This document shows positions 5,818 to 43,732 of a stretch of DNA of 64,000 bases, one piece after another. The DNA is from Limonium bicolor. Lineage: Eukaryota; Streptophyta; Magnoliopsida; Caryophyllales; Plumbaginaceae. Location: NCBI GenBank assembly GCA_023374045.1, contig CM041776.1:42414171-42478170 (forward strand). Direction: 5' to 3'. The notes under the pieces were generated by a model. It made no database searches and had not been told where the DNA came from. It was given only the letters and a program-made list of their open reading frames with translations. The position numbers and the translations under genes are program-made. Position 1 is the first letter of the stretch. Each line of letters starts with the position of its first letter.

Positions 5818-6730
5818 TGCAGACTGTATATTGTGAGTGGTTAGAACTGGTGTAATTTAAACAAATGAAAAAGAAATTAATAACTCAAATATCTGTCGAG
5901 CTGCAAATAAAACCCAGTCGTAGTATAGTAAGACAGAAGCGGTCGGGGTCAAACCGTGGGACTTATAGTGAAATAATATAGTACCTAAGCTTGTCACAAA
6001 AGGGGGAAGATAATTGACTCGTTTTTGTAATCTGATACAACAACAGATTAAATTAACTGAGTGGAAGACAAATTAAAGGGACTCCGGGTTCAGGTTTATA
6101 TAATCTGATTAATTATGCTATCTCTACCGGTTTATTATAATAGTTTGGCAAAATTCCTGTTTTTATCTTAAGGACTAAATCATAGACTCAAAAGGACTTG
6201 TTTACCAGAAAATGCTCGGTCTAATCTAGACTCGAGCAAAACACATGTAAACGGAATTAAGTGCGAGGAATTATATTTGCATCTGAAAATACTAACTTAT
6301 TAAATCATAATAAGCTTTCTCCAGATTTACGGCTTAGTTAACCTGTCTATTTATCACTGGTCTGATCAAAATAGACTTTGTAAAGCATTTTAATAAATTC
6401 ATGAAATTTATTAAAAAGGTAAGAGATAAACTTTAATCGTAACAAACTGTATTTATTTTAACCGGTAGAAATATAGATTACATAACTAAACAAACTATAA
6501 TTAAACCTTCCCCCGGAGTAAATCCTCCTTAGCCTGACATATTAACTGGTAATATGTCAGTCAGAGGTTGGACGTAATATTAATGCAATGTTGTAGAGGT
6601 GTGGATGATGAATGGAGAAATGAAGAGAACGAAGAGTGGAAAGTGTACGTAGGAATTTGTATGTGGATTGAGTGTTTTGGAGTGTTGAGTTCTGGGGATC
6701 GACGTGTGTTTTTGGTTGAAGGTGCAGTGT

Positions 6731-6741
6731 GTTTATATAGA
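6731..6741 (-). promoter_or_regulatory. TATA box of F left LTR
   Basis: On the - strand the text reads CTATATAAAC, a good plant TATA box. The same box is in the right LTR at 12525-12535. U3 then runs from 7508 down to here and holds the dyad array. Confidence 0.6.
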
Positions 6742-6940
6742 AGAAAGGAAGAGGAAGAAGACAGGTTGGAGAGGAGACAGAGCTGGAGACAGACGCGTCA
6801 GGGATTTAAGGTAGGCGCCTGATATGGTTTATGGAGTAGATGGATATGTCTGCACTGCCGCAAAGGAAGAGGCAAGTCGGCAAAGAAAACCAGTCGACAG
6901 TTTCTGGATCTGGGTTGCATTTACACGCGTCCTTGTTTGT

Positions 6941-7261
6941 GTCCGTCCATTTTTCCACGGACATATTCTTCAAATTGCTCACGTCCGCCCCTTGTCCGTC
7001 CATAATTCCACGGACGTATTCATTTCCTTATTTCTGTCCGGCCAAATAAGCACGGACGTAACACGGTTGCTATATTTGCCGCGTCCGGACCACCGTCCGG
7101 ACCTCCATGGTTCGGACGCTTGTATTTTCTGTTGCGTCCGTGTTTTTCTCTCCGTGGATGTGCCACGGACAGCTTCTTGTCCGGCCTTATTAACCCGGAC
7201 ATGCCACAGACGGGTTTTTGAATTGTCCGAACCACTTTGTCCGGACCACCTTGGTCCGGAC
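6941..7261. repeat. GTCCG-N12-CGGAC dyad array in U3 of F left LTR
   Basis: About eight inverted-repeat units start at 6941, 6994, 7036, 7083, 7136, 7179, 7225 and 7239, most of them 22 bp long with GTCCG and CGGAC arms. Arm extensions change together: GTCCGT pairs with ACGGAC in some units and GTCCGG with CCGGAC in others. Spacing is about 42-53 bp. The array sits about 200-530 bp upstream of the element's TATA box. Confidence 0.8.
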
Positions 7262-7508
7262 AACAATTGTTTTGCTCCTAAAATATTCGTTTTAGCTCCG
7301 TTTTAAGATCCGTTTGCGCCTATGCGTTCGTCTCTTCGTCTACTTTCATCCTAGCTTGGTTTTCCTAATGTTTAACCAATAAATTTGTGAGATAACTAAT
7401 AAAACATAAACTAAAGGAAAACTAAGCAAAGTGGAGAAATGAGCAAGAAAAGTGCTAATATAATAGATGAAATACACCTATAAAATATGCTCATTTGGAC
7501 ACTTATCA

Positions 7509-7521
7509 GTCCCCCACACTT
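7509..7521 (-). promoter_or_regulatory. polypurine tract of element F
   Basis: On the - strand AAGTGTGGGGGAC directly precedes the LTR start TGATAAGTG. Two further close copies lie inside the element at 8246-8260 and 8376-8389. Confidence 0.75.
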
Positions 7522-8733
7522 ATCTTTTTGCTTGTCCTCATGTAAAACCATGTACCCAAGCAAGTAGGGAATGCTCAATACTAACAAATATTATTAGGAA
7601 GGGTAGGATAAAGAGGTGAACAGTACATGATCTCAAACTTTTTGAGAAGTGTGATCTATCAACTGCTGGTGGCACAGGTGTACTCAGGGTAAAAATAAAA
7701 ATTAGGGTTTCTGGGTATGATCCGGAGTACTTCAATGCTTCTTAGTTAAGGTGACTTTGAAAACTTTTACCATGGCCAACTTCTCTCAAGAATGGGCATT
7801 GAGGAGAAAACAAAAGGAAAAATAGATTTATGCATTTGTTTCACTTTTGCATAAGAGATGAGAAGATAATATGTAGGCATCAAGCCTTTGTTTTTAAGAA
7901 CACTCAACTCTCTTTGTTGGTTACCAATGGTGTCTCACAAGTCCCTTGCTTATTTTTTTTTACAGAGAAGCACCCCTTAGCAATCCCTAAGAAAGAAGAC
8001 AGAAAGAACCCCTGAGCAATAAAAATCCAACCATTGCAGATCATTTGGTCACACCGCATAGAAAATGCTCCTCAAAATCAATCAAAAATTTTAAAATTTT
8101 TGTACCATTTATCCCACAATTCATAACAGTATTTATTCATAAAGAGAACAACCCACATCAGCAGGGTCCATAATTTAAATTTTTGGACTAACGCAAGATA
8201 AGCAGAGAGATTAAACATTTTAGCACAAAATTTCACCGAAAAGGGCTCTCCCCCACACTTAAGCTCAAGCAATGCCCTCATTGCATAGATAAAATTAAAT
8301 TAACAGGGCATAGCAAAGAGAATATGAAGTATCAGTAGGGAAAGAGTGTGCTCCCCAAAGTTCGCAGAGTGTCGCGCTCCCCCACACTTGAGTGTAGCTG
8401 TAGAATTACATGAGATATACCTGTAAAGAATATTCTACACGCTAGAAGAACTCAAGTAAAACCCGCATTTTATTATACATATAAAAGGGAAATATAGTAC
8501 AAAAGAGAAAACAAAATAAAATAAAATGAAGGCAAAGTGTAGATAGTGGGTTGCCTCCCACTAAGCTGCCCAGGTTTAACGTCTCTAGCTAGACGCATGT
8601 TCTTCATTTTCCCGGATCAAAGATGAAAGTTGAAATTGACGTTAATGGGAAAAAGCAATAGCTGACAATCAGGATTGAACCACCTGGAACAAAACAAAAT
8701 ATTACCTCAACAATTAAATTAAGAAAATAGTTT
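7522..8733. other. 3' internal untranslated region of element F
   Basis: AT-rich, without a recognisable coding region. Its first 460 bases recur at 13320-13781. It includes two additional copies of the polypurine-tract motif (CTCCCCCACACTT on +) at 8246-8260 and 8376-8389. No pol remnant is recognisable. Confidence 0.6.
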
Positions 8734-10886
8734 CTACATAAAACCTGTTTTTAGGAGATATTGTTGGTAACGGGTCTTAAACAGAAGACCAGGTGCTGAC
8801 TGTTGCTCTCCCTCAAATTGGAGGATGAAGACATCCTCCTTCTGTAGGTGAGGCTCATAGAAAGAACGCTGATCGATATCATCTTCAGAGAAAATTGATT
8901 CTTCGAAGGTGATAGTGGCGTTTTGTTTGGATGTTCTGGCGGGAGCGAGCATTTCCTCCTCTTCATTTTTGAGGATATAACTATCCTCATTTTCTAGGGT
9001 ATAGCACAGAGAAGGAGGGAAAATAACGGTAATTGACTTCAGAGGGAGGAGACTCCATGAAGTTGAGGTAGAAGCTGTCCTCTGATGGCTTGTCTTCAAG
9101 CTTAAGCAGAAGGTTTGATGTCGTTTGCTCAGGTTCGAACGAGGGTGGTGACAGAGAGTAACTCAAATCCTCAATAAAGTTGTGCACTATATGAACCATT
9201 TCACTTTCTGGTTGCTGCGATGCAAGGTTTAGTGGACCTTCCATCATTTCATTTATCTCAACTAATTTGGCATAGAGCTTCAGTTGGTTCATGTCGAGGT
9301 ATTCTTCCTCAGCCCGCTGCTCCACTTCATGGACCATTTCACTCTCTGGTTGTTGCTCCCTTTGAGCTAGTGTGATGGGCTGGTCCACTACATAAATTGT
9401 GTTTGCATACTCTTTTGGATTTGGATTGGTTTGTGAGGGGAGTTGCCCATGAGGTCTTTGTTGGATGAGAAGTTGTTGAATTTGGGACTGCAAGGCTTTT
9501 TGGTCATTACGAAGGGCTGTGACTTCATCTTGCGTGTCTCGGGTCTTACTCATCATTGCTTTAAACATCTCCTGCATTTGGGACATTCCAGAGTCAGGAT
9601 TTGAAGGTTGTTGAGTCTGTCGGCTTGAAGAAGCATCATTACCATAAGGCGGATGCTGATACTGCCTTTGTCCTCCTTGAAAATTGGGGTGCATGTTGTG
9701 CTGCCATGGTTGTTGTACCCTTGATTGTTACCAACAAAGTTTGCTTCCTTTGCTGTTTTAATTTCTGTAATTGGGCATTGTTCATAATCATGAGGCCCAC
9801 CACATTGCGTACAAGAAATCATGAGATGATCGGGATAGAGGAGCATAGCCTGGAGGGGTTGTTGATGATCGGGAAGTCATCGACTTTGCTTGTTGGGGTA
9901 GGAGTTCATGGCCATCTGCTCAACCACTTTCTGCAGAGTACTTACTTTGTCGCCTGCTGCGCATTGCTCTCCATGAGTTGCTCATGGCTTTTCATCAGCT
10001 GGTCAAATTTATTGTCACTTTCCCCGACATGGTATAAACCTGGAGTGCCGCCTCTTGATCCGCCCGTGGCCCAGTCTCTGATCTCTTCACAGAGAGACTC
10101 TATGCTATTCAGAAACTGTTCTCCTGGCTTTTTCAGAATGTCAGCCCCTAAAGAGGATAGTACTATTGTTCTGCATGGACCGATCAAGCCTTTGTAGAAC
10201 AATTGTGATACTTGCTCTTTCGTCAGACCATGGTGAGGACAAGTAAGTAATAGTCCTTTGAAACGGTCCCAAGTTTCACATATGTTTTCCGACCCTGGCT
10301 GTCTGAAATTATAGATTTCAGCAATCATTTCCAACGTTCGGCTCGGGGGCAGGAATTTGTCGTAGAACTTGGTGGCCATTTCATCCCAAGTACCAATGGT
10401 ACTTGGTGTCAGGCTGTAATACCATTTGCTCGCATTTCCCGTCAGGCTGTGAGGGAATAATGACAGTCTTGCGTACTGGAGCACTGCGTCGGTCGCAGTT
10501 AGACTGTTGGCATGTTGCAAGAATTTCGTAACATGTAACAGAGCTTCGTCTGGACTGGAGCCATCGAACATCCCTAACTCCTTTACGCATCGGATCTGAT
10601 TATATGGCTTTAGCTTTTGCCACTCATCGTATTCGGATGGGGTAAGGTGGGGAAGGATGATGGCAGGCTGTTGTCCTTGATTAGACGGCCTATTGATGTT
10701 TCGAACTGTCGCTGATGGAGATGTCATGTCAGCTTCCAGGTTGGATTCTATCACTGTGGTGGCTATGTTTTGTTGAGATCGTTTCTGCCTTAGACTGCGC
10801 AGAAAGGTTCTCTCGATCTCTGGGATGTAGTCAACCGTGTGATTATTAATATTTTCTGGGAGGTTGTGCGACCTAGTAAAAGGCAT
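8734..10886 (-). pseudogene. Athila-type gag, frameshifted
   Basis: The first 314 codons (10886-9942) are open and hold the Athila-like capsid region, with landmarks GNASKWYYSLTPSTIGTW, TKFYDKFLPP and a CPHHGL segment near residue 215. After a frame change, 9846-9553 has a zinc knuckle CTQCGGPHDYEQC (CX2CX3HX4C). A further frame (9694-8987) carries the Gln-rich stretch ending in HGQLPSQTNPNPKE, typical of the Athila gag C-terminus, and an acidic tail with a repeated QQPESEMVH. At least two frame breaks make it non-functional as read. It would package element RNA; there is no pol downstream. Confidence 0.85.
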
Positions 10887-11596
10887 TCACCACTCAAAAC
10901 AGCAAAAGAAACTCGTGATGTGTTAAAATAAATAAAAATGGAAAGAAATAGGGAGAATTAAACAGTTAAACAAAAATTATTCGAAAATTTAAGAACTTTT
11001 TTTTGGAGTAAGTTAACCGATAATAAATAAACAAAAAGAAATTAAAATAAATGTAGATTAAGTAATTAAAAACAGTAAAATAAATAAAGAACAGGACAGA
11101 ATTAAATAGCAGAAATTTAAATGACAAGGGAATTAAAATGACAGGGAAAATAAAGAACTGGAATTTAAATTACTGAATTTAAATGTTAGTTAGTTAGAGT
11201 ACTGGAATTTAAATGACAGAATTTAAATGACAGAATGTAAATGTTAGTAATTAGTTGACAGAAATTTAAATTACTGAATTTAAAATGACAGAAATTTAAA
11301 TGTTAGAAGTTAGTTTACTGAAAATAAATGTCAGAAATTAGTGTACTGAAATTTAAATGTTAGAAGTTAGATTGCTGAAATTTAAAGGACACTGGAAATT
11401 TAAATAACTGGGAATTAAATGACAGTAATTTAAATGACTGAAATATAAATAACTGTAAGTAAATAACAGAAATTAGTAGAAGTAAAATAGACAAACAACA
11501 AAATAGTATAAACAGAATATTAACAGAATAAAGAAAATAGAATATTATAATATAACAGGTGAATTATTCGGGGCTTAGGGACTAGAATAAATCAAG
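10887..11596 (-). other. 5' leader of element F with ATTTAAAT repeats
   Basis: This stretch lies between the primer site and gag. It is A-rich, and from about 11090 to 11470 it consists of loosely tandem units of about 15-30 bp containing the palindrome ATTTAAAT plus GACAGAA, ACTGAAA or GTTAG. No coding region. It may be the packaging or untranslated leader region, but that is inference. Confidence 0.6.
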
Positions 11597-11614
11597 TCCC
11601 CGGCAACGGCGCCA
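11597..11614 (-). promoter_or_regulatory. primer-binding site, tRNA-Asp type
   Basis: On the - strand TGGCGCCGTTGCCGGGGA lies 3 bp from the LTR end. This is complementary to the 3' end of plant tRNA-Asp and is the primer site used by Athila elements, which fixes both lineage and orientation. Confidence 0.9.
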
Positions 11615-11617
11615 TTT

Positions 11618-13306
11618 TGCAGACTGTATATTGTGAGTTTGGTTGGAACTGGTGTAATTAAACAAATGAAAAAGAAATTAATAACTCAAATATCCGTCGG
11701 GCTGCAAACAAAATCCCGGTCGCAGTAGTATAGTAAGACAGAAGCGGTCGGGGTCAAACCGTGGGACTTATAGTGAAATAATATAGTACCTAAGCTTGTC
11801 ACAAAGGGGGGAAGATAATTGACTCGTTTTTGTAAGTAAAACAACAGATAAAATTAACTGAGTGGAAAACAAATTAAATGGGACTCCGGTTCAGGTTTAT
11901 ATAATCTGATTAATTATGCTATCTCTACCGGTTTATTATAATAGTTTGGCAAAATTCATGTTATTATCTTAAGGACTAAATCATAGACTCAAAAGGACTC
12001 GTTTACCAGAAAATGCTCGGTCTAATCTAGACTCGAGCAAAACACATGTAAACGGAATTAAGTGCGAGGAATTATATTTGCATCTGAAAATACTAACTTA
12101 TTAAATCATAATAAGCTTTCTCCAGATTTACGGCTTAATTAACCTGTCTATTTATCACCGGTCTGATCAAAATAGACTTCGTAAAGCATTTTAATAAATT
12201 CATGAAATTTATTAAAAAGGCAAGAAATAAACTTTAATTGTAACAAACTGTATTTATTTTAACCGGTAGAAATATAGATTACATAACTAAACAAACTATA
12301 ATTAAACCTTCCCCCGGAGTAAATCCTCCTTAGCCTGACATATTAACTGGTAATATGTCAGTCAGAGGTTGGACGTAATATTAATGCGGTGTTGCAGAGG
12401 TGTGGATGATGGGAAATGAAGAGAACGAAGAGTGGAAAGTGTACGTAGGAATTTGTATGTGGAATGAGTGTTTTGGAGTGTTGAGTTCTGGGGATCGACG
12501 TGTTTTTGGTTGAAGGTGCAGTGTGTTTATATAGAAGAAGGGAAGAGGAAGAAGACAGGTTGGAGACAGAGCTGGAGACAGACGCGTGAGGGATTTAAGG
12601 TAGGCGCCTGATATGGTTTATGGAGTAGATGGATATGTCTGCAGGCAAGTCGGCGAAGAAAACCAGTCGACAGTTTCTAGATCTGGGTTGCATTTATTTC
12701 CTGTCCGTGCTTTTTTTTCACGGACTCATTTATCTCTTGTCCGTCCATTTTTCCACGGACATATTCTTCAAATTGCTCACGTCCGCCCCTTGTCCGTCCA
12801 TAATTCCACGGACGTATTCATTTCCTTACTTCTGTCCGGCCAAATAAGCACGGACGTAACACGGTTGCCATATTTGCCGCGTCCGGACCACCGTCCGGAC
12901 CTCCATGGTTCGGACGCTTGTATTTTCTGTTGCGTCCGTGTTTTTCTCCGCGGACGTGCCACGGACAGCTTCTTGTCCGGCCTTATTAACCCGGACATGC
13001 CACGGACGGGTTTTTGAATTGTCCGAACCACTTTGTCCGGACCACCTTGGTCCGGACAACAATTGTTTTGCTCCTAAAATATTCATTTTAGCTCCGTTTT
13101 AAGATCCGTTTGCGCCTATGCGTTGCGTCTCTTCGTCTACTTTCATCCTAGCTTGGTTTTCCTCATGTTTAACCAATAAATTTGTGAGATAACCAATAAA
13201 ACATAAGCTAGAGGAAAAACATACGATAAGTGAGAAATGAGCAAGAAAAGTGCTAATATAATATATGAAATACACTCATAAAACATGCTCATTTGGACAC
13301 TTATCA
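11618..13306 (-). repeat. right LTR of element F (5' LTR, 1689 bp)
   Basis: Partner of 5818-7508 with the same ends (TGCAGACTG ... ACTTATCA). It contains a TATA box at 12525-12535. Compared with the left LTR it lacks 16 bp near 12640 and has one extra GTCCG dyad near 12700. On its right it continues without a target duplication into internal sequence of the same family. Confidence 0.9.
12700..13061. repeat. GTCCG-CGGAC dyad array in U3 of F right LTR
   Basis: Same array as 6941-7261, with an additional unit (arms GTCCGTG and CACGGAC flanking a T-run) at the left edge. Open frames running through this array on both strands reflect the repeat. Confidence 0.8.
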
Positions 13307-13781
13307 CACCCCCACACTTACCTTTTGCTTGTCCTCAAGCAAAACCATGTACCCAAGTAAGTAGGGAATGCTCAATACTAACAAATATTATTATGAAGGG
13401 TAGGATAAAGAGGTGAACGGTACATGATCTTTAAACTTTTCGAGGAGTGTGATCCATCAACTACTGGTGGCATAGGTGTGCTCAGGGTAAAAATAAAATT
13501 AGAGTTTCGGGGTATGATCCGGAGTACTTCAATGCTTCTTAGTTAAGGTGACTTTGAGAACTTTTACCATGGCCAACTTCTCTCAAGAATGGGCATTGAC
13601 GAGAAAACAAAAGGAAAAATAGATTTATGCATTTGTTTCACTTTTGCATAAGAGATGAGAAGATAATATGTAGGCATCAAGCCTTTGTTTTTAAGAACAC
13701 TCAACTCTCTTTGTTGGTTTCCAATGGTGTCTCGCAAGTCCCTTGCTTATTTTTTTTTACAGAGAAGCACCCCTTAGCAAT
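13307..13781 (-). mobile_element. F': internal 3' segment of a second Athila-type copy, truncated
   Basis: It begins with the polypurine tract copy at 13307-13319 and is collinear with 7509-7984 (same AT-rich text, few substitutions) until the shared CAAT at 13778-13781. There it stops and integrase sequence of element B begins. This gives the order LTR - internal - LTR - internal, the product expected from recombination between two copies. Confidence 0.85.
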
Positions 13782-14229
13782 GGTCTTTGGCACACCGTGG
13801 TGCCGGATCACCTCCTTCTGGAACAAGTCCGCCAACTTCGGGACCTTCCAGGTATCCTTCATAGCAACAAACTTCGCCACCTTTGTAAGACGATCTACAA
13901 TGACCCAAATCGTGTTCAGTCCTCTCTTAGTCGGTGGGAGACCGACAACGAAATCCGTCGAGAAGTCCTCGAACTTCCAGCATGGACTGCACTAATCCGT
14001 CGGGTCTCTTGTGCTCAAACTTAACCTTCTGACAGGTCAAGCATCTAGTCACATAGTCGGCTACGTCCTTCTTCATCCCGCTCCACCAGAAATGGACCTT
14101 CAAGTCCTTGTACATCTTCGAAGAACCGGGGTGGACAGATAAGGACGAGCAATGAGCCTCCTCGAGTATCTTCTTCTTCAGGTCAGAAGAAGACTCTGGA
14201 ATACATAACCGGCCATTCAGTCGAATCAT
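13782..14229 (-). pseudogene. integrase fragment of element B (zinc-binding domain and part of the core)
   Basis: 14229-13927 encodes the HHCC domain: paired His in AHCSSLSVHPGSSKMYKDLK and the C-L-T-C pair in TRCLTCQKVK. After a frame change the catalytic core is recognisable to KEVIRHHGVPKT, where the sequence breaks off at 13782. The C-terminal part and the 3' LTR are missing. Inserts element cDNA into the genome when intact; here a relic. Confidence 0.8.
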
Positions 14230-14289
14230 GTCGTCGTCGCTCTGTTCGAAGTCGTACTTCTGACTCTCAAAACAACCCTCTGTTATCTT

Positions 14290-14691
14290 CTACTTGATAC
14301 TCTGCATATACTGATCATTCTCCTGTGCAACTCGTATCTCATCAACTAGACTGCTGCCTGCTAAAAGCATAAACAATGAATGTGCTCGGTGGCTCAGGGC
14401 GTCGGCTACTACATTCGCCTTGCCCTCCTTGTACCTTAGGTCTATGTCGTAGTCCTTCAAGAACTCGACCCATCTTCTCTGTCGCATGTTCACCTCCTTC
14501 TGAGTGAAGAGATGCTGTAAACTCTTGTGATCAGAGTAGATGGTGACTGTCACACCGTAAAGATAATGGCGCCAGATCTTCAAAGCGAAGACTACTGCAC
14601 CCAACTCAAGGTCGTGTGTGGGGTAGTTCACCTCGTGCTTCTTCAGCTGTCGGGATGCGTAGGCAACGACCTTCCCGTGCTGCATAAGCAC
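14290..14691 (-). pseudogene. RNase H domain of element B
   Basis: Open frame of 133 codons with hallmark segments [33 protein letters not shown] and [10 protein letters not shown], the last two holding catalytic Asp residues. It would degrade template RNA during reverse transcription. Separated from RT by a stop or frame change at about 14692. Confidence 0.85.
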
Positions 14692-14696
14692 ACAGC

Positions 14697-15704
14697 CTAG
14701 ACTACCTCGAACCCATCGGTGCCCTCAGGGATAGTAAGGACGGGTGCTGATGTCAGGAGATCCTTTAGTGTCTGAAAGGACTGCTCGCACTCGGCAGACC
14801 ATAAGAACTGGGACTCCTTCTTCATGAGATTCGTCATTGGTTTGGTCACCTTGGAGAAGTCCTTCACGAACCTTTGATAGTAACCGGCCAAACCCAGAAA
14901 GCTGCGGACGTCTGTTACCGTCTTCGGCCTCGGCCAACTCTTCACTACCTCTATCTTAGCAGGGTCTACAGATATCCCGCTAGCTGATATAATATGTCCA
15001 AGGAATGACACGCTTGTCCAACCAGAACTCACACTTCGAGAGTTTGGCATACAGCTGGTTCTCTCTCATGATACTAAAAACCTGCCTCAAGTGTAACTCA
15101 TGCTCCTCATCGGTCTTAGAATAGACCAGGATATCGTCGATGAAGACCACAACTGAACTATCAAGCTGCTCTCTGAAGAGACGGATCATCAATTCCATGA
15201 AGATAGCTGGCTCATTCGATAACCTGAATGGCATAACGGTGAACTCGAGTCCTGAAAGTTGTCTTCTCAACATCACCCTCTGCAATCCTGATCTGATGGT
15301 AGCCAGATCTGAGATCTATCTTTGGGAACACACTGGCTCCTCTCATCTGGTCAAACAAGTCGTCGATCTGTGGTAACGGGTACTTGTTCTTGACCGTGAC
15401 CGCATTAAGCTCGCGGTAGTCGATGCAGAGTCGCATACTGTCGTCCTTCTTCTTGACGAACAGGTTTGGAGCACCGCAAGGAGAAACACTAGATGGTATG
15501 AATCCCTTGTCGAGGAGGTCCTCCAGCTTGTAGCTTCAGCTCCCTCATCTTAGCTGGCGCCATACGGTAGGGCGCCTTAGCAATAGGGCCCGTACCTGGC
15601 AATAAGTCGACGGCGAACTCAACCTCGTGCATAGGCGGCATGCCAGGCAGCTCATCAAGAAACAAGTCGGGGAAGTCTACCACGACTGGAATGTCTGAGT
15701 CCAT
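14697..15704 (-). pseudogene. reverse transcriptase of element B, in several frames
   Basis: Fragments at 15704-15489 (N-terminal region, [17 protein letters not shown]), 15436-15212 ([33 protein letters not shown]), 15285-14980 (fingers/palm with catalytic [13 protein letters not shown] near 15144-15110) and 15050-14697 (thumb and connection, [17 protein letters not shown]). Usual Ty3/gypsy order, but with at least three frame breaks. Copies RNA into cDNA when intact. Confidence 0.85.
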
Positions 15705-15713: not shown

Positions 15714-16322
15714 CTATCTCGTGTCCTGAACATAACAGAGGAAGGCCTGTCGGCCATTCCTAACGTCCTTTATCAGGGATAGCGCTGACATGATCTTGAC
15801 AGTCGGCTCTCTCTTCACACTGCGGTATGACACTGTCTTGCCGCTCGGCCCCTTCAGCAGTAGTTGATGCTCTGCACAATGTAGGCGGCCCTTATGCTTC
15901 TGCAGCCATTCCTTACCCACTATAATGTCGAAGCCCAAGTTCTTAAACTCAATCAGGTCGATGGGGAAGGTCTCAGTCATAATGTTGATCTCTAGTCCCG
16001 TGTACTATCTGGTGCAACCAACTCTCTCCTTCGAAGGAAGAGTGACTGAAAAGTCAGAGAGCTGTTCGGGGGCTGCCCTCAGCTTCTTAGCGAATGCCGA
16101 GGAGATAAATGAATGCGAAGCCCCGGAGGCGAACAATATGGAAGCACTAACACCATCGACAGGAAAGGTACCTGAGATTACTTCTCGTGTTAGCATCGAG
16201 CCACAATAAATCACTTATTTATTGTCGGTTGTTAATTGTCATACCTGTGATGACATTACCGGACTCCTTGGCTTGCGCCATATCTAAGATGCATAAGGTA
16301 CCCTCCATTTCATTTTCGTGGC
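15714..16322 (-). pseudogene. aspartic protease region of element B, with predicted 73-nt intron
   Basis: 16214-16005 carries the protease motif as FASGASHSFIS. The usual catalytic motif is D-S-G, so the Asp is replaced by Ala. 15980-15714 is the protease C-terminal part (LGFDIIVGKEWLQKHKGRL). A small exon at 16245-16322 (ending SGNVITG) can be joined to GTFPVDG by removing 16172-16244, which has GTATGA and CTCAG ends; element C has no equivalent insertion. The 16323 acceptor (CTCCAG) is conserved in C. Inactive as read. Confidence 0.7.
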
Positions 16323-16443: not shown

Positions 16444-17182
16444 TCAGTATTGTCTGAAAGTTAAATTTAAACGGTCGGGTCGGATGTGGGTCTCATTCAC
16501 TAGAGCTGGTGGGGCGGTATTGAGCTTAATGCTCTTAATCCCATGATATACTAGCCTTGATTCTCTACCAAATACCAACACATCCCCATACTTGAGGACG
16601 ATCTTGCTTGCCAGATCCATCCTCTTCTGGTCTCCATAGATGAACTCAGCATCATCGTCAATGGAGAACGACACAACCGGTATTCCTCTGGTGATGGACT
16701 CGGTCGTCTCATCACGGTCTTGGTGCATCCCAAGCCTTCCTCCCTGCTCGTAGTAGTTGATGATGCAAACATCGGGTGTCATGTCGGGTAAAGGGTAAGT
16801 CTCACAGTCTTGAGCAATATCCATTGCTTTTCTCACCAAGGTTAGGAAACTCTCAGGTATCCAGGTATTGATACGTCATCTACCATTCTCACCTCTCGGT
16901 AAACCCTAGCATGCGGATCCCAATCCTTCCCTAAGCACATCATGTGCAGTTTCATCTTAGAACCACTACTAAATACAGGGGTATAAAATCCTTCCAAACC
17001 CTTACCCAAAGCTCTACACTCATCTACTATGGCGATTGGTTCATCTAAGGCTAGGAACTCTCTGAGAAGTATCATGCTCGGTCTGACCACATAACACAAC
17101 TCGCCAGGGTACTCCCGTCTTTCTTCCACAGGTCTAGGTGATCTCGGTCTTGTGAGTGTGGGATAGCAGATATCGAAGTCTC
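16444..17182 (-). pseudogene. AlkB-type 2-oxoglutarate/Fe(II) dioxygenase exon carried by element B (ALKBH1-like)
   Basis: About 245 codons. In order: FDICYP near the start, CYVVRPSMILLREFL, FYTPVFSSGSKMKLHMMCLG, KDWDPHARVYREVR, VCIINYYEQGGRLGMHQDRD, IPVVSFSIDDDAEFIYGD, GDVLVFG, VYHGIKSI and RLNLTFRQY then stop. The Fe ligands (H-x-D in MHQDRD, distal H in VYHGIK) and the 2OG-binding R-x-N-x-T-F-R are all present. This matches plant ALKBH1-type proteins, which demethylate nucleic acids. One 8-bp tandem duplication (ATACCTGG then ATACCTGA, near 16850) shifts the frame between the two halves; otherwise no stops. It starts after a good acceptor (TCTCTTAG) at 17183 and lies between gag and protease on the same strand. 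Element C has the same domain in the same place. Confidence 0.88.
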
Positions 17183-17279: not shown

Positions 17280-20200
17280 TGTAACACCCCTCTCCATAAA
17301 CACGTAATAATCCCTCACTTAGCAATAAATAAAACGTCTTACAGCGGATGATAAATAACAACATTAATACTCACTCGGGTGTCACCTACCATTACTCGCC
17401 CATGCAAGTAACGAAGCATAACTATATCCAACAACCAAAATAAATAAACTGCTAACCGCTGTGATAACGAGATAACTCCTATACATCATACTAAGTCCAT
17501 AAACCATAAACGTCGACAAGTGAGTGTCTACCCAATCCCAAATATACATAACCGTGCCATAATACAAACCACAGTCTAACATTGTTATACAAATAAACTC
17601 CATGTGCGGTAATTAAAATAAACTCAATCTACCCTGATCCCGCACTTCGGCTTCGGCGATAATCAACAACCTGCACAATGAGTGTAGTCTCAGCGATAAA
17701 CGCTGAGTATGCCGGGCCTGACCCTATTGGTCACTTAGTCATTTTAACCATCTTATTATTAGATTGGTTTCATGCTTTACCATTTTACAGATATAATCAA
17801 TCCTGTAATAGACATACATAAAAACATAACCATCCATCCAATCAATACAGTTATTACATATCACATACAACAGTTGTATAATCGAACATATCGAAATAAT
17901 TGCAGTATAATGTACAATGTACAATCGCTGTAGCGAACGGTTTCTATATTTAATTTACCTTGGCCTTCAAGGCCCATCCATCCAAACCATGTTTAATTAT
18001 TTATTTACCAGTTGGGCGTCAAGTTAGGACAACCCGATAACAACCTCACCATGGACAGTAGTCCTCCCGTACACACAAAGGTGCTCATTTCGCCAGAGGT
18101 CCGGAGGCCCCTGACTATTCACTTTGCCTCGTAAGGCGTCCATATAAAGGTCGTAGCCACGTGACCCACGATCCAAATAGGGCTCGTTGGGTATATACCT
18201 GGAGCGGAACCCGATCAGGAACCCCTCAGTGATCATAAATGTGCAACCAGGTAGTTCGTAAACTACACTGGATTCCTCACCTCAACTCATACCATCTCTC
18301 TCTCATAATGTTTAAGATATGCTCTTAGTCTTATGGAGAATACAATTTATTAATTAGCTGCCCAATGGGTCTCACGCATACCTAGAAGTAATCTAGGTTA
18401 TATTCATGTTCGAGATCCATGCTCTAGAGACCGACAATGTCGTGACTCGTTCCTAAGTGTTTTACTTAGGTTACCATATACTTAATATTAATACTAATGG
18501 TATTATATCAAGTAATCGTCATGTCATCACATTAAACGCATATGTATGTTTATATAAGTAGTTCTATAGTCGACGTAGTGTTAGTCCCGTAGGACGCTCG
18601 TGCATAAATAATTAATGCAGTAACACACATAATCACATACACGTATCCACACACATAACACACAAGTTATATCAACCAAATCCGAGCCCAAGGAATTCCT
18701 TAGGACAACCCGATCAAACCCCTTTACATACCGTACACCTTAGACCAAGGATGCGCAGTGTAGACCACTAGCTCGTCAAGCGCCTTCGTCTGAAGTATGA
18801 TCTAAACGGTAATAAAACTACAAGTCAGTCTCCAAGACTAACTAAATCCGGTATTTCCGAATAACAAGTAACCCCGACATTCATCCCCGGATTTCTATAG
18901 TTAATTGTTACGGGTTTCTCAAAACCAGTCGGCTTTGTTACTAAAACTCGTAGGTCGTAATGTTTCGACTGTTGAGTTTAATCCATTATATTTCTTTAAT
19001 CTTATCCATCATTGAATTTAGGTATAGAACCTATAATTGCATGTATGCATGCATTATTTATTATATTGTATTATTTTTCCACCATCCATTATAATACTTT
19101 GTATTACATAATCCATTAATCTTGTAATAATTATATTTGAATTCAAAAACTTATAACTCATTGTTTATAAACTATTTTCATATAATAACCTCCACCATTA
19201 TATTATATGGTCTCCAACCATAATATATATCCATCCTTATATACATTATTCTCGTATATATTTACCAATATAGTAAGTTTCATGAGTTGTAAAACTCTTA
19301 TATTATATGTTACATTTTATCAACTTATATTAGATGATAATTCTCATTATTTGTATTATACTATACAACTTATATTAAGATTATTATCCTAATATTATGT
19401 AACATCTTTATGTTGTATAATTACAACTTCTAAGGTTTATTCAATATATACCTTAGTTTATAAATCTTATTTATTTATAGTTTGTCACATTATTTAATGT
19501 GAATATCCTTACTTATTAATTCCATCTAAACCACCTTAATACCATATAATTGTTATAACATTTATAACATTGTAGACCATAGTCTAAAATTCATTTTCCA
19601 ACTCTTATTAATTCGGTACAACACTTTATTTTATTTTAATTTCATTTTGACCACATAGCATTATGTAATGTTATACCTTATACTAATATCATATAATATA
19701 TATTTTTTTGTTTCCTTTAACTTATAACCTATAGTTTTTATACAAAACTACATTTAATGCCACATAGGCATATACATTTAAACCTTATTCTTTTCCATAA
19801 CCCATAGTTTTGTTTATTTACAAAATCACCCCATAATTTATACCACGTTATATATACCATATAATATAACATTTTTAACTTATAAAAAAGGTATAACCTA
19901 TGGTTATTTTATAAAATAACCGAACAGATTTTTAATTTGTTTCAATTTATTTCCAGCCCCTTTAACTTTCCAAATTTATAAATTTGACCACATATATAAT
20001 GTTATGTCATATATATCATATATTATAACATTTTAAACCTTAATATTAATATAACCTATAGTTATATAATATTTAAATTGCTAACAGACCCCTTGTCTAT
20101 TCTTAATTATTTTTCAACCCACCAACTTTCTATAATCACAATGTGACCCACTTTATAACATATAGTTTTATAATATCATTAAAACTATATATTATACATA

Positions 20201-22677
20201 TATCTTAGGAAATACTCTTATATTATTCTAAAAATCACCAAATTTTACCCAAGGGTTATAATTAACATTGCTAACCCATATACTTTCGGTATTTGCTATT
20301 CCACCACTTATATTTATCCAAAGTGTCACAATGACATAATAACTATATATTATACATATATAGTTTATTTAAATTCCAAAATCAACCCAATAAATTCCTA
20401 AAAATTCCTAATAGCCCATGGGTGTTTATAATACCATTTTACACCCTTTAGTTTCGGTAATAACATATTTACCCCATATGTTATAAAAATGTTACAATTA
20501 AATACTTATCTTATTATAAAACCTTAAATATGTTATTTAACTTATCTAATTTGGTCCAAGCCTACCACATGGTCAAGGTTGACCTCCTTAATATTGCCTT
20601 GACCATTAATTTCCATATATCACGGTTTGTACCCCATATTTTTTAGAAATTACCATTTAACCCCAAAACTTTAGAAAATCTTATAATTTTTATTTTAAAT
20701 CCTTTTAACCTCAAACTTTCGGCTTTATTATTATATAGCCCCCAAATTTAATTTAATTATGGTTTATACCCCAATTCCTTGCGGTAATATATTTTTATTA
20801 CCTAAACTTAATTAAAACCTTATAAATACATAAATAAAATGGCCTAAAGTACATGGCCTTATTACAAACATTAGCTTATAAAATAAATTACACATAAATG
20901 CTCAAAAATGCTTTACACTCTCGGCCTCACCATATAGTTTTCCATATTTACCAATTTTCCACATAATGTCTTAAATTTGACAATTATGTTAATTAATTAC
21001 TTATATAAATTTACTAAACCATTCCTTAATCACCTAAGGTCAAAATAAGACCTTTTATACCTTGTTCACTCACGGCAATATTATACACATATGTATAAAC
21101 ACATATTAATATACCAAGTGAAGGTTTAAGTGATTTATACCTTATTTTTGCCAAGTTTAGGCATTGTTTGGCCACGGCTAGCTTAGGATAGTTTTTCCAC
21201 AGCTTCTTTCACATGTTTTCAAACAGCAATTAAGGCATGATTAGTCTCCAAACAATAGCTAACCATAAGAAGTGCTTAATGTATATTTTCAAGGTAAAAT
21301 TTACCTTAGAATACCAAGGCAAGCAAAGGTGGTCTTCGGCCTATTTTTACAGAAGATAAAGAGCATCAAAAGAGCTACTAAACCAAGGCTTAAAACCAGT
21401 ATAACTCAGATTAGAAGATGGCTAATTTTCACCTTGATTAAAATGCCAAAAATGGTGTTTTTGGCATGGATTTGGCTATTCCTTGAAGCTCTTGATATAC
21501 CAACTGAATAAGTATGTTAGGAAGAAGATTATAAGCCTAGGAAATCAAACTTTCCAATCGGAAATGAAAGGAATGAAGAGATAAGTGCTTAAAGCACATT
21601 TTTACCTTAAAAGATCAAGATTAGAACTTCCCTTCTTCTTCCCTTGTTACAGCCGAGAATTACCCTTCTTTTAACCTCCAAAACAAGCTAGGAACATGGA
21701 TAGAAATGGTTGATGTTTAGCTCCATGGAAAGAGGAAAGAAAAGTGAAGAGAATGAACATAAAATGGCTTAATAAGCTTACCTAGATCAATTGGTGTTCT
21801 CCTCTGAGTTTGGTGTGTTCCCACGGTAATGGAGGAGAAAAATAGAGGATGGAGGCTGAAGAAATCGGCTGGGAAGGAGGTAATGAGAGGAAAGAGAAAG
21901 AATTAAGCTTATAAGATAAAGTTTACTTACTTTAGTAAATAGTCATAGATGACTCATTGGTAGATATTTTAGGTTGCTTAATGGGTGGGTATGACAGCCT
22001 AAAGAGGTTGGCAATGGGTGGTTTGGTCAATGGATGACATTTGACCATGGTTAAAGTTAAGTAATTAAATGTTATTTTGGGTACTATTCACCCAAAATCA
22101 CCCATTTTGATTTTATTTTTAAACTTTGATTTAGACTTTATAATATAGTCTATCATGTCACATTAATGATATAAAGAATGTAATCTAGTGTTTAAAGTGA
22201 CAAAAAGTCAATATCTTAGAGCTCATACACAAAAACGTGTTTTAAGGTGTTTTAGTGCACATTTTGTGTCACAAGGTGTTTCTGAGCTTAGTTTTCTTTG
22301 AGAATGGTTTCATTGTGTTCCTTACATGATAATTGATCTTAGGAACCCAATTTATATCAAATAGAGGTCATAAGACCTTTAAGGTTTCTTAGAGCACATT
22401 TTTGCCCTACTTGACCTTTAAGCATGTTAATGCTTGTTCTTTGTGTTGGAGTGTTGTCCAACGATTGTAGTATGTTCCTCTATGTGTTAATATGCTTAGA
22501 CAAAATTTTAGGTCCTAAGAAGTTCATTTGGGTATGTATTTACCCTAAACAGTCAAAGGATGCAATATCTTGCTTTGTGTTGACCATTATTGTTCTCAAT
22601 TGACTTTTAAGGCATGTTTAGGCCTTAATTAATGTATTAAATGTTTAATCCATGTTTTATTAGTTTGGGGTATTTCA
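17280..22677 (-). repeat. left LTR of element A (3' LTR, about 5.4 kb)
   Basis: Begins TGTAACACCCC and ends GGGGTATTTCA on +. Very AT-rich through 19000-21200. By eye it differs from its partner by roughly one change per 60-100 bp with small indels (for example ATATGTATATATT added near 28990). The terminal 130 bp (GCAGCGG, TCGCCCATGC) resembles the ends of the B and C LTRs. The 79-codon antisense frame at 21272-21511 recurs only because the LTR is duplicated. No gene seen. Confidence 0.92.
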
Positions 22678-22695
22678 ATCTACCCCCTTAAAAAG
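22678..22695 (-). promoter_or_regulatory. polypurine tract of element A
   Basis: On the - strand TTTTTAAGGGGGTAGAT directly before the LTR start TGAAATACC. Followed on + by the inverted CTTCGTCCCGAAG, also typical next to this tract in Tekay elements. Confidence 0.8.
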
Positions 22696-23286
22696 ACTTC
22701 GTCCCGAAGTCGCTTAATCAAATAGGTGTTTTAATAACTACCCATATAACCATAATGTATATCTATGTGATATATCATTTACACACATCGTATTGTGCTT
22801 ATACAGCACAGCCCTCATCTGTGGCGTTAATTCAATCATATATGGATATAGGTGATCCATCAGCACCATTATTTCCTATCAATTCTACAAACCCTGACAA
22901 CCTCCCCGAGGTGTCCATAACATACCATCCTTCCACATTCCATATCTAATGATTCATTTTGTATCTAGGCGATACCATATGTAATCATTCTACAAGGTAA
23001 TATAAATATATATATCACAAGTATCATTAAAAGGTATTACACACATGGGTGTAAACACAACATCAAGCAAGTATCTCGTAGGATACATACATACAAGTGC
23101 ACATTACACACAACAAATCAACAACGTACGCCCCGCGTACCACCAATTCACTGTATGACCTGCATACGAAACAACACAAACAAACAAACCTCGTATGCCC
23201 CACATACCACAAACTACTGTATGCCCCGCATACGAAACAATAAAACTTAGTGCACACACGTGCACAGCCAAGAGGCTCTTCCCCCC
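22696..23286 (-). other. 3' untranslated internal region of element A
   Basis: Non-coding, AC-rich, between the pol-tail stop codon and the polypurine tract. It holds a four-unit hairpin array at 23126-23233 and, at 23276-23296, a second polypurine-like motif. Open frames here are short and unlike any protein I know. Confidence 0.6.
23126..23233. repeat. array of four GTAYG-hairpins in A's 3' region
   Basis: Four 15-base inverted repeats start at 23126, 23153, 23193 and 23219: GTACGCCCCGCGTAC, GTATGACCTGCATAC, GTATGCCCCACATAC and GTATGCCCCGCATAC. Stems change in a paired way (C-G to T-A at the same stem position), and units are separated by CAA-rich spacers. Confidence 0.75.
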
Positions 23287-23296
23287 TTAAAAAGGG
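23276..23296 (-). promoter_or_regulatory. second polypurine-like motif after the pol remnant stop in A
   Basis: On - it reads TTTTTAAGGGGGGAAGAG, overlapping the stop codon of the pol remnant. The same motif follows the pol stop in element C (44084-44103). It shares TTTAAGGGGG with the LTR-proximal tract. Confidence 0.55.
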
Positions 23297-23400
23297 TTAC
23301 GCCCCCGTACCCCACAAGTATACAACAGCCGCTCAACAAGGAGCGCTGGATACTTGGCTCTCATAGAGTTCTCCAACTCGTGGATTATCCTTATATCAGA
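23287..23400 (-). pseudogene. chromodomain-tail remnant of pol in element A
   Basis: HELENSMRAKYPALL then a short extension to a stop. It aligns with the end of the integrase chromodomain-type tail in element C ([15 protein letters not shown]). Nothing recognisable from pol lies upstream. It shows that A descends from a complete element by deletion or replacement of most of pol. Confidence 0.65.
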
Positions 23401-25458
23401 GAGACTGGTATGACTCTAGCCCTTCCGGGCTCCACAACACATAAAGGGTGAGGCACTAATCTGTTTATGCTCTCTCCCGAATTTGTTCTAATGGGCCCAC
23501 TCGCTCCGTATTGAGATGCAGACCCATGAACATAGGCTCAGTTTGCCTCTTTTCATTGTCGTGTATCCTCTCGTTTGGATCACTAGCATAAATGTGTGTG
23601 TCTTCTCTCACTAATATTCAGCTTGAGGTGAAATATGACATTGGCTATTGTTAGTACTTAGTGCTCTTTGCACTAGTCTTTGTAATACTGAGACGTACTA
23701 GCCTACATGTCCACGGAGATAAAGCTTGTCATCCGTGTCTCCAGGTGGTTTTGTTCCGGAGTAACACACTGTTGTAGTTCTTTGATACTCACTTCGTTTT
23801 GATATCCATTTCATCTTCCCGTATTCCCACTAGATTAATAACTGCACAAGTGCAATACCAAAACACTCAGTCCTACAGAGTGCAGAGGCGTAAACCCTCA
23901 GCAGTTAATATCTAATGAGTCAAACAGATAAGATGAACCAATTATCATGTGAGTTGTACATTTCAAGTCCGTTAGTTATCATAACGTTGTTCCTTGCTTA
24001 AGGTATCTGCTAGTATATTAGCTTTGTCTCTCATCATTGCGTAGTCACGCGTTTATGTTCACATCATCTGGTAGGTTCCTCTAGATTGCAAAAATTTGCT
24101 CGATCCTTATGAGGGTTCTACATATTATTCGTCCATAATGGGTTTTCATGTTTCTATCCTTGTCATTCACATTCTCATTGTATACTGTCTGCTACTCTGT
24201 GTTGAAGGTTCTTGATTTCTCTAGCCCGTTGGTTTAACTGCGGCTCGTCTCGTCCATCTTCGAGGTAATCTGCGTCACTGTCCTTATTACGGAGTTGACT
24301 ACTTTGTGTTCCTAACACTACTTGTCTACATACATGGGGCACCATACTGATTACTACTTACCCCTACTATAAATAAGTCTGTCAGGCCCACATGCTCCTA
24401 TCGGAGTGCGGTCCGTCCCATGCCTCGTTTAGTAAACTGGTAATGTCTGTCACACGGTTTATTGTGAAGTAGTGTCAATCTCCCTTTATGGATGCTTTTA
24501 GTTGTTTATTATTCCTGTTATTGGTTCTTGTTGTAAGTGCTATTGCCCTAGTGGCATGGTGTAAGTAAAATTCGTGCTATATTTAGCAAAATTGGTTCTC
24601 TTATCTCGATCTCATTGAGTACAACACATATTCCTTTTCTCCCTGTTCAATCATGATCACATCTCATCCATAGTTCGTATTTGTTCCCTCATCCGTTTAA
24701 CTAGATATATTGCAGATTGCATAATAGCTAGAGCAACTTGGCTCTTCACTTCCCAACCATCCTCACTGACGGTGGTGCATCTACAAAGGGTATGCTTGTC
24801 CATAAGGACTAAATATTCATCACTATTAGTGATTAGCATTAAATGCGGGTATACACTTATGGTATTTGGCTAATAAGCCATGTCTGAAAATTCTCGAACA
24901 ATCAAACTGGTGTGGTTTACAATCAGTGGCTATATAGTTTCTTCAGTTGCAGTGGTTGGACTAACGGTCTTTCCGAGGTTTCACAGATTTCTAATCTTAA
25001 GGTTTGTATGAAAAAGTATGAAAATTTTGGTATAAAATAAGAGATTAAAATTTAGTGGTAGTTGTAGTTGCAGTTGCGGCACTTGCTGTGGCAAGTGCGC
25101 GAGGCAGATGGAAATTTCAGTGGTTTGATTGTCATAGCGCTTGCAATAGCAAGTGCGCCATGCAGGTGGAAATATTAGTCCAGTAATTACCGGTCTCAGT
25201 ACTCTTCCGTCGTTGAGTATGGGCTACATGATAATGTAAGCATTAACATTCTGTTCATATATATATCTGATCCGTCAAGATTTCAAGGTTACTGGTATCG
25301 AGTCCACATAACTAGTCTCAAAAGTCATACACAAAAGGCGAGTGGTCACTAACACACCCCCACATATTTACAGCGTATATCTGCCTAATATCCAAGGCTA
25401 AGTACATAACAAGGTAAGAAAAAGTCTTCCACCAGCGGTCTCACGGAGTTCAGGGTAC
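23401..25458 (-). other. unrecognised 2-kb internal segment of element A
   Basis: Between the pol tail and gag. Moderately mixed composition, many stops in all frames; the longest - strand frame (24657-24839, 60 codons) matches nothing I know. No AlkB, protease or RT motif is visible. A 58-bp near-tandem duplication with hairpins lies at 25079-25156. Probably replacement sequence or decayed pol. Confidence 0.45.
25079..25156. repeat. two-copy repeat with GC(A/G)CTTGC-GCAAGTGC hairpins
   Basis: GCACTTGC-TGTG-GCAAGTGC at 25079-25098 and GCGCTTGC-AATA-GCAAGTGC at 25137-25156, each followed by GAGGCAGATGGAAAT or CATGCAGGTGGAAAT. The second stem keeps pairing through a G-U (or G-T) pair. Located about 300 bp downstream of gag. 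Confidence 0.65.
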
Positions 25459-26783
25459 TCATGCCCTATCGACTCCCTTGCCTCTCTGGGCTCCAGCATC
25501 AGTAGATGTCTGGCCCTCCTGACTGCCTCGCGGTACTCCAGATCCTCCAGCTGAGGTCTTCTGAGTATTCTTTGGTGGCCTGTAGTTACGGCCCTCAGGG
25601 TTCATCCAACACTCGAACTCCCGGTGGCCCTCTTTCTTACAGTACTGGCACTCTACTTTGCGGCCACTACAGTCGACCCCAGGATGATCCTTCCCAAAAC
25701 GCTTGCAATAGAAATGGCGCTGGGGCTGTCCGGTGCCTAATGGTAGCATTTAGTTTAAGTTAATAGCTATGTAGGTAACATGGCTAAGGTTACAATTTAA
25801 TTAAGAGGAAGGTGTTCTCACCCTTAGGAGGTGCATATCTCAAAGGCTGAGCATCTATAGCTGGGCCGGTCAACCGAAGGACGGGCTCTTTCCCCTTTGC
25901 TCCCTGGTGACCCTACTGCCCTTTCTTCTGGAAGAATTTATTTCCCTTCTTCTGGCTATCGCCTGAAGATGCTCCTCCACCCTCAGACTCTCCCTCTGGG
26001 TTCTTTCTCTTCTTGGTCCCGAGAGTCTCTTCCCGAGTTTGGAGCATTAGCTCCGTCCTCGAGGCAGCGTCATAACACTCCTGGAATCTCATTGATAAGT
26101 TCTCACAAAGTTAATCGGTAATGTAGTAAGTAAAGAATTTATGGCTTTCATGTTTATACCTGGATAGTAGAATAGAAGGTAGCACCCATCGCCATCTGGA
26201 TGCGAAACAACAATCCCCCCCGGAACTTCTCGACCTTCACGGTCTCTGAGTAATCAACTCCGGAATGAAGTCCAGCAGACCAATGAATCGAGCGTAGTAC
26301 TCATCCACGGTCAGACCTCCCTGGGAGAGTGTCTCGAACTCTCGGCGCTTCTTCTGCTTGAGATGTGCCGGGTAGTACATCCCCCTCAGCAACTCAACGA
26401 AGGCAGCCCACGAAAAGTCGGGCGTAGCCAGGTGATGGTCCTTGACCAACCTCCACCAAGTGCTGGCTGCATCCTTCAGGTGGAAAGCAGCAATGACGAC
26501 CTTCTTGTCGGCAGTACTTGCAAAGCTTCGTAGGCCTTCTCATGTTCTACAATGAAACGCTCTAAGGCTACGGGGTCGGCTCCCCTAAATAAGTAGGTGG
26601 TCGGGTCTCGGTAACTGACTTCAGCCAGTTCGTTTCCCTGGGTTGTGGCGGGTGGGCTGGTGTTCCACCAATTTGAGTACCAAGCTGTGCGAGAACGGCA
26701 GCAATCGTCTCTGCAACTCCTGGAATCACGGGGTCACCGCCTCTACCTCTACCGGTACCACGCCCTCTAGTTCCCCCAGACAT
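25459..26783 (-). pseudogene. gag of element A with two predicted introns, frameshifted
   Basis: Start at 26783 (MSGGTRGRGTGRGRGG, an RG-rich N-terminus). The capsid part continues to 26160 with two frame changes (landmarks PDFSWAAFVELLRGMYYP, FETLSQGGLTVDEYYARF). Predicted introns at 26081-26159 (GTATAA...CCAG) and 25737-25821 (GTGAGA...TTAG). The middle exon starts with ECYDAASRTEL and is Lys/Glu/Gly-rich. The last exon holds two zinc knuckles, one around KDHPGVDC and one CQYCKKEGHREFEC. Introns at the same places occur in B and C. Structural protein of the particle, able to bind element RNA; probably inactive here. Confidence 0.8.
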
Positions 26784-26999
26784 CTGTAGTACAGTATGTC
26801 AAATAAATACTCGGTAATTTACCGTACACAACCAGTAGATATTGAATTGCCTTTAAGGCTAATACATCACGCAATTTGCGTTACCAAACACAATAACTTT
26901 TAAGACGAGTCGTCTCGTACCTCACAAACGTTTCCCGTAATTTCCCAAGTCCTAAGCTCACTGTCTTAACCTAGTGTCTCGTCATCAGAGCGGTACTCC

Positions 27000-27011
27000 G
27001 CTCTGATACCT
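27000..27011 (-). promoter_or_regulatory. primer-binding site of element A, tRNA-iMet type, in a hairpin
   Basis: On - AGGTATCAGAGC, one mismatch from TGGTATCAGAGC, which pairs with initiator tRNA-Met. It overlaps an inverted repeat ATCAGAGCGG-AGTA-CCGCTCTGAT (26984-27007 region) that could fold the site into a 10-bp stem. Confidence 0.8.
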
Positions 27012-27015
27012 CTTT

Positions 27016-32424: not shown

Positions 32425-33302
32425 TCTCATACAATGGTTTAAGGTTTTAAAGGCTAACCTTCACCACGCTGGGTACTAGTGTTCAGCGCCCGAAGCTCCC
32501 ACTGCATTCAGCGTGCGGTTGCCCGGCAGGTTCGTCTTCAGGGTCTGCTGCTGCCCCTTCTGGACTGTGGGCGTCTGCCTCTTCTTGCCACCTCGAGCTC
32601 CAGCTCCTCCAGCTGATGTCCTCTGAGTCCCCTTCGACGGGCGGTACGCTCGGCTCTCCGGATTCGCGAAGCACTCAAACGACCTATGGCCCTTCTTCCC
32701 ACAGTGGTGGCAGTCCACCGCTTGCCCAGCGCAGTCAACACCCGGGTGGTCTTTACCACAACGCTTGCAATGGAAGTGGTGCTGGGGTGCAGAACCTATT
32801 ATCACACAACACTTGGATTAGTACAAGAATGGTAATGGACAGTGTATTTCACAACTCATTCATGAGGTTAGATCACTTACCCTTGGAGGGTGTAGATCTG
32901 AGAGGCTGGACATCATAGGTAGGTCCGGTCAGCATCAGAACCTTCTCCTTGCCCTTCTGGCTAGCCTGCTCCTTCTTCTTCTCCTTCCAAGAGAACTTTT
33001 TCTTCCTATTATTTTCAAAGAGTTAGGAATTGCAGGTATAAAAGCAGGCAAGCAAGTATAGTAATTTAATAACTTAAAAGCGGTTCTTACTTCCCACCCT
33101 TGCTGCCTCCGCCTCCAGCCACAACCTCAGCCTCCTTCTCGGGGGCCTTACGCTTCTGCCCCTGGTTGTCATCCCGGCTGTTCACCAACAGCTCGGTCCG
33201 AGAAGCAGCATCATAGCACTCCTATAATGCATCAATGAGTTCCCCAAAACTTGTAAATCAAACTGAGTTACAATATATAAACTGTTAACTAATTTACCTG
33301 GG

Positions 33303-35214: not shown

Positions 35215-35226
35215 GCTCTGATACCA
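35215..35226 (-). promoter_or_regulatory. primer-binding site of element B, tRNA-iMet type
   Basis: TGGTATCAGAGC on -, 4 bp from the LTR end. Part of an imperfect inverted repeat ATCAGAG ... CTCTGAT, as in A and C. Confidence 0.85.
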
Positions 35227-43715: not shown

Positions 43716-43732
43716 ATCTACCCCCCTTAAGA
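43716..43732 (-). promoter_or_regulatory. polypurine tract of element C
   Basis: On - CTTAAGGGGGGTAGAT directly before the LTR start TGAAATACC. Confidence 0.8.

Follow-up and report, generated by a model that had tools for sequence, protein, structure and literature searches.

How does an exon for an AlkB-type demethylase come to stand between the gag and the protease of a plant retrotransposon, and does it belong to that element? The question is raised by 64,000 nucleotides of Limonium bicolor DNA (contig CM041776.1, positions 42,414,171 to 42,478,170; the whole stretch is called the window below), in which an earlier note, made from the letters alone, had described such an exon in a Ty3/gypsy element, here called B. 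The note had also held that plant long terminal repeat (LTR) elements normally carry no AlkB domain, a statement that has to be relaxed, since published Phalaenopsis elements carry one (PMC9289625). We find that the AlkB domain is a genuine component of a retrotransposon lineage; its fold is known, its location is unusual, and a precedent of different make has been published. It appears fairly probable to us that a plant Ty3/gypsy lineage, probably of chromoviruses, captured an ALKBH1C/D-type demethylase gene between gag and pol, where it has been under selection since; the capture would probably have proceeded via a spliced mRNA, with the gene's own stop codon included. The exon in question is the following.

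16444-17182, minus strand: AlkB exon of B (2OG-FeII_Oxy_2, ALKBH1C/D type), with its own stop codon and one frameshift near 16850-16863

The exon runs from 17182, the base that follows an acceptor-like ...TAG, to 16444, where its TGA stop ends. The Pfam profile proposed in the earlier note as a check, 2OG-FeII_Oxy_2 (PF13532), matches the downstream piece (16444-16839, minus strand) with 107.1 bits (E 1.8e-30; cut-off 31.2), and the upstream piece (113 aa), searched by itself, has no Pfam match with E at or below 1. In tblastn the intact database protein P0152 aligns to both pieces in the same register, with 62% identity over 113 aa upstream and 75% over 138 aa downstream. The H-x-D motif, the distal H and the R-x-N-x-T-F-R motif are all kept in B, which bears out the claim of an AlkB-type domain with its catalytic residues; the single frame change near 16850-16863 means that this copy is broken. 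For the downstream piece, the best match of solved structure is rice OsALKBH1 (146 bits, E 4e-42; E. coli AlkB 74 bits, animal ALKBH1 35 bits), and the nearest NCBI matches, among those listed, are plant proteins, several of them named DNA N(6)-methyladenine demethylase ALKBH1C-like or ALKBH1D-like. Judged by its sequence, the AlkB of B is therefore assigned to the plant ALKBH1C/D (OsALKBH1) subfamily, so that the suggested closeness to plant ALKBH1 proteins is narrowed, by sequence as well as by fold.

The centre of the window consists of nested LTR retrotransposons, A, B, C and D, which were delimited by comparing the window with itself. The parts of B, and the element C that lies within it, are as follows.

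35231-39867, minus strand: 5' LTR of B, traced up to where D is inserted, with no upper boundary located; over 36846-39330 it is 65% identical to C's LTR
35215-35226, minus strand: primer-binding site (PBS) of B, TGGTATCAGAGC
32479-34877 (34197-34877 and 32479-32795), minus strand: gag and zinc knuckle of B (Retrotrans_gag 9.3e-07; zinc-knuckle matches below cut-off)
17280-32419, minus strand: element C, LTRs 17280-22677 and 27016-32419, 97.7% identical, target-site duplication (TSD) CATGC
15717-16322, minus strand: protease region of B, decayed (RVP_2 1.7e-12 and 1e-05; acceptor-like site 16323/16322)
14293-15535, minus strand: reverse transcriptase (RT) and RNase H of B, decayed and spread over several frames (RVT_1 4.8e-09, RT_RNaseH 8.3e-27)
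13782-14289, minus strand: N-terminal part of the integrase of B, ending at element A (Integrase_H2C2 2e-20)

On the minus strand, B thus reads 5' LTR, PBS, gag with zinc knuckle, element C, AlkB, protease, RT, RNase H and a partial integrase to 13782. The described position of the exon between gag and protease stands on its downstream side, where protease, RT, RNase H and partial integrase follow on the same strand, and needs correction upstream, where the direct neighbour is element C and B's own zinc knuckle, gag and PBS lie beyond it at 32479-35226. C is flanked by the CATGC duplication, and is therefore an insertion into the older minus-strand element B, placed between B's gag and B's AlkB. 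C itself has a gag and LTRs of 5.4 kb without pol or AlkB, and is a non-autonomous relative.

With B nested and broken, a host ALKBH1 exon might have come to adjoin retrotransposon debris by chance, and a chimera of gag and ALKBH1 does exist in a Cinnamomum gene model (P0055). What bears on this explanation is the second element, D.

39868-52256, minus strand: element D, LTRs 39868-43715 and 48420-52256, 98.3% identical, TSD TAATT, PBS at 48416
46730-48209, minus strand: gag and zinc knuckle of D (Retrotrans_gag 1e-15, zf-CCHC 7.1e-05; donor-like site 46730/46729)
45857-46581, minus strand: AlkB of D, decayed, ending in TAA (tblastn with the pieces of B and with P0152/P0153, matches in three frames)
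44143-45141, minus strand: open frame of D in which RT is joined, by an internal deletion, to the integrase C-terminus with a chromodomain-like end (RVT_1 8.5e-32, SH3_Tf2-1 4.3e-22, Chromo 0.0011, below cut-off)

When the AlkB and pol pieces of B were searched against the window by tblastn, the loci B and D were hit and no third, and AlkB has the matching position at both, so that B's AlkB is not a stray host exon. The order in D is gag, AlkB remnant, protease, and RT fused to the integrase C-terminus with its chromodomain-like end, the remnant (two pieces, PF13532 2.1e-04 and 6.4e-06, both below cut-off) lying between gag and protease within D's own LTRs and TSD. The chance neighbourhood of a host exon was rejected, because D has the same arrangement within its own LTRs; B's AlkB furthermore clusters with five relatives, apart from host genes, and we regard this explanation as extremely improbable. 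Neither of the outcomes that the earlier note had set against its own claim, a host gene without flanking gag and pol or a missing AlkB match, was seen, since D repeats the order and PF13532 matches.

Both elements are of the Ty3/gypsy LTR type, D with LTRs, TSD, PBS, gag and an RT-integrase end, and B with PBS, gag, protease, RT, RNase H and part of the integrase, its 3' end being absent. They have the PBS sequence TGGTATCAGAGC in common, which we take to be of the initiator-Met (iMet) type. The label of chromovirus given earlier to B is upheld in part: the 3' end of D is chromodomain-like, but its match scores 19.2 bits (E 0.0011), short of the 25.1 bits that Pfam requires, the PDB matches are also weak, and B is without that region. 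The copies of B and D in the window are dead. In D the RT-integrase joint is in frame (44143-45141) and AlkB and protease are decayed, yet the LTRs are 98.3% identical; D may have been mobilised in trans.

Relatives of the AlkB protein were collected by three protein searches, in which 45 of 48, 106 of 170 and 1033 of 1812 candidates passed, the best 120 of the 1033 being listed. Among the matches listed, host land-plant proteins are about 46-60% identical to B's core, and five proteins, P0152 (PF13532 153.9 bits), P0153, P0154, P0157 and P0001, are set apart with a mutual identity of 61-78%; the contigs that encode them are from ENA in four cases (10-27 kb) and from Logan in one (1.2 kb). HxD and the distal H are present in all five, and the complete R motif (RxNxTxxR) in three, the other two sequences being too short. 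Scans of the viral_contigs and genome_contigs collections found no relative of the element. Two trees were built from 253 proteins, of which 46 were chosen for the first and 42, with more non-seed plants, for the second, together with B's core; the rows are ALKBH1-type and bacterial proteins, and D is in neither tree. B and the five relatives form one branch in both (support 99/95 and 100/99), placed among green-plant ALKBH1 proteins. The position of this clade outside the land-plant host genes has support 96/87 in the first tree and falls to 88/42 in the second, where its union with angiosperm genes was not rejected (approximately unbiased test, p-AU 0.417).

In the relatives on the 10-27 kb contigs the open reading frames (ORFs) are uninterrupted across the catalytic core, without the break at GLH/QDRDE that host genes seem to have, and the host-like ORFs P0022, P0023 and P0032 start just before QDR, as if at an intron end. 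This difference suggests that the relatives' AlkB copies are intronless, and from it we infer capture from a spliced mRNA. The loop before the iron motif is shorter in the element proteins than in the land-plant host rows; we dropped its reading as a derived deletion, for the loop is shorter still in the bacterial rows. P0155 and P0156, high-scoring but with internal repeats of the domain, were excluded from the trees. P0055 of Cinnamomum micranthum was discarded as a family member, since in its AlkB part it sides with the host paralogue P0051 and a gag block sits in its N-terminal part; a gag block inside a host ALKBH1 paralogue is the reverse of the situation in B and D. Seven ALKBH1 proteins, among them some from liverwort, fern and yew (P0105, P0116, P0123, P0134, P0135, P0139 and P0143), have PF23134 and PF06221 beside AlkB, which none of the angiosperm rows seen has.

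A transduced host gene might also have been spread by hitch-hiking, of no use to the element, as the broken AlkB of both window copies and the many non-synonymous differences between them would allow. Constraint was examined by the codon positions at which B and D differ. In the AlkB core, differences at positions 1, 2 and 3 number 51/135, 36/134 and 84/134 (p 9e-9), and in the upstream part of AlkB 45/109, 43/110 and 61/108 (p 0.02). The 64 columns compared ahead of the exon gave 7/21, 8/21 and 11/22 (p 0.52), and past the AlkB stop the pattern is a different one (27/38, 24/37 and 17/38; p 0.05). In RT the differences are 24, 16 and 61 of 106 each. Codon by codon, the AlkB of B and that of D have 49 identical codons, 55 synonymous and 133 non-synonymous differences, and one stop in D. 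The third-position excess indicates that AlkB was constrained as a protein during the divergence of B and D, less so than RT, and the decay that both copies underwent later has added to the difference. This excess, and the relatives that keep uninterrupted ORFs and cofactor residues while only 61-67% identical between subfamilies, speak against a useless passenger, which we consider unlikely.

As to how a captured AlkB would be expressed, the following stretches on the gag side are relevant.

32880-32796, minus strand: putative gag intron of B, GT-AG stretch, 85 nt
25821-25737, minus strand: putative gag intron of C, GT-AG stretch
47148-47068, minus strand: putative gag intron of D, GT-AG stretch

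These GT-AG stretches of 81-85 nt, with stops in every frame, occur at one gag site in all three copies; phase-1 open frames lie on both sides in B and C, and the downstream zinc-knuckle frame of D differs. As far as sequence can tell, they are likely an intron in a plant Ty3/gypsy gag, and the lineage thus seems to splice; introns in plant LTR elements have been termed exceptions, Ogre and EVADE being named (PMC12786077). AlkB stops before the protease in B and D, and the ends of P0152, P0153 and P0154 coincide with that point; with a stop codon there, AlkB is not translated into pol. In both elements an AG site precedes each of the two exons: for AlkB at 17183/17182 in B and 46582/46581 in D, for the protease at 16323/16322 in B and 45724/45723 in D. 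The AlkB exon of B and the protease exons of both elements are in phase 1 and need one upstream base, and the donor-like site of D's gag (46730/46729) leaves one base. Splicing into the AlkB exon would then yield a Gag-AlkB protein, and skipping it in favour of the protease exon a Gag-Pol protein; Gag-AlkB would enter the virus-like particle, where AlkB could remove methyl groups oxidatively from the element RNA, the RNA:DNA hybrid or the single-stranded cDNA, and host-written marks or lesions that stall reverse transcription would be lifted. Only tentatively do we propose that an old, intron-bearing plant chromovirus lineage used spliced Gag-AlkB to bring an eraser of the N6-methyladenine (6mA) or 1-methyladenosine (m1A) type into the particle and edit the methyl marks on the element's own RNA or newly forming cDNA. 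Set beside the Phalaenopsis (orchid) elements, this would amount to convergent evolution of element-encoded erasers. Repair instead of evasion is another possibility, to be held with similar reserve: the enzyme would clear lesions of the m1A or 3-methylcytidine (m3C) type from genomic RNA or cDNA and so unblock reverse transcription, a role like that proposed for the AlkB domains of plant RNA viruses, but for rice ALKBH1, the nearest relative, the demethylase activity described is on 6mA.

Directly supported are the AlkB domain, its position in two diverged elements, the single branch of B and five relatives, the codon constraint between B and D, and the uninterrupted relatives with cofactor residues. 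Several points weigh against capture under selection and against the splicing model. AlkB is broken in both window copies and is under weaker constraint than RT, with 133 non-synonymous against 55 synonymous differences and a stronger bias in RT; elements A and C are without AlkB, though also without pol. The AlkB exon of D is out of step with D's gag donor, and a gag-to-AlkB donor in an open frame was sought in B and not found, being present only in D. The location of the five relatives inside an element is presumed. Finally, in summed tblastn scores on D, the host protein P0160 (175) comes near P0157 (197) and P0153 (191) and exceeds P0152 (155), and D is absent from the trees; its kinship to the element clade is therefore drawn from position and these scores, less from sequence.

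Elsewhere in the window, element A (5818-13781; LTRs 5818-7984 and 11618-13781, 93.5% identical by self-comparison) has gag only, and its border at 13782 interrupts B's integrase; no matching TSD was found at its ends, which leaves a clean insertion into B unsupported. Ty1/copia-like pol frames, named by eye, lie at 55447-58941 on the plus strand beside a PBS-like site at 55162, adjoined by a 260-bp direct repeat (54902/59066). The stretch 60990-61910 is duplicated in tandem, with a period of 455 bp and 95% identity.

An orchid lineage with an RNA demethylase could, taken alone, be an accident. A second capture, by another kind of Ty3/gypsy element and from another AlkB subfamily, would, if true, suggest that plant retrotransposons are held back when their nucleic acid is methylated or alkylated. 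The question is open to direct test, as intact proteins are in databases, assays for their substrate are feasible, and specific RNA junctions are expected under the splicing model.

Among known systems, B and D resemble Tekay/Del and other plant chromoviruses in their iMet-type PBS, long LTRs, 5-bp TSD and the order gag, protease, RT, RNase H, integrase (PMC6317226, PMC3605345), and D perhaps also in its chromodomain-like end. Of the chromoviruses, 94% are reported to have chromodomains, other groups having none, and the word AlkB does not occur in the main text of that survey (PMC6317226). AlkB domains occur in another kind of replicating element, the plant RNA viruses of the Alphaflexiviridae, Betaflexiviridae and Closteroviridae, a likeness drawn from their description (PMC9289625). 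Rice ALKBH1 demethylates 6mA in single-stranded DNA and R-loops (PMC10469495); from OsALKBH1 (PDB 5xeg, 5xoi) and plant ALKBH1C/D the AlkB of B differs in being element-borne. In the literature on AlkB in LTR elements, most subscription papers lying outside the scope covered, only the Phalaenopsis report was found (PMC9289625), recounted in PMC12786077. It describes the Gypsy_Pa_2799 family of two Phalaenopsis species, of the Tat/Ogre lineage, whose ALKBH5-like domain is active on N6-methyladenosine (m6A) RNA in vitro (Alvarado-Marchena et al. 2022, PMC9289625), and its survey of 121 genomes gives no AlkB domain in consensuses outside the Phalaenopsis ones. B and D share with that family the plant Ty3/gypsy nature, an AlkB from a plant-like gene and, in B, complete cofactor residues. 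On the other hand, Gypsy_Pa_2799 has a tRNA-Arg PBS, a length of 25 kb and a separate ORF2, whereas B and D have an iMet-type PBS and AlkB between gag and protease, with a chromodomain-like end in D. Its AlkB is ALKBH5-like and that of B ALKBH1C/D-like: OsALKBH1 is the best match, ALKBH5 reaches 15-17% identity by fold, and it is absent among the 21 PDB sequence matches of P0152. With a different PBS, AlkB subfamily, position and probably lineage, the capture seems separate from that in Phalaenopsis, and the lineage of B and D looks like a second, independent case of a retrotransposon keeping such an enzyme.
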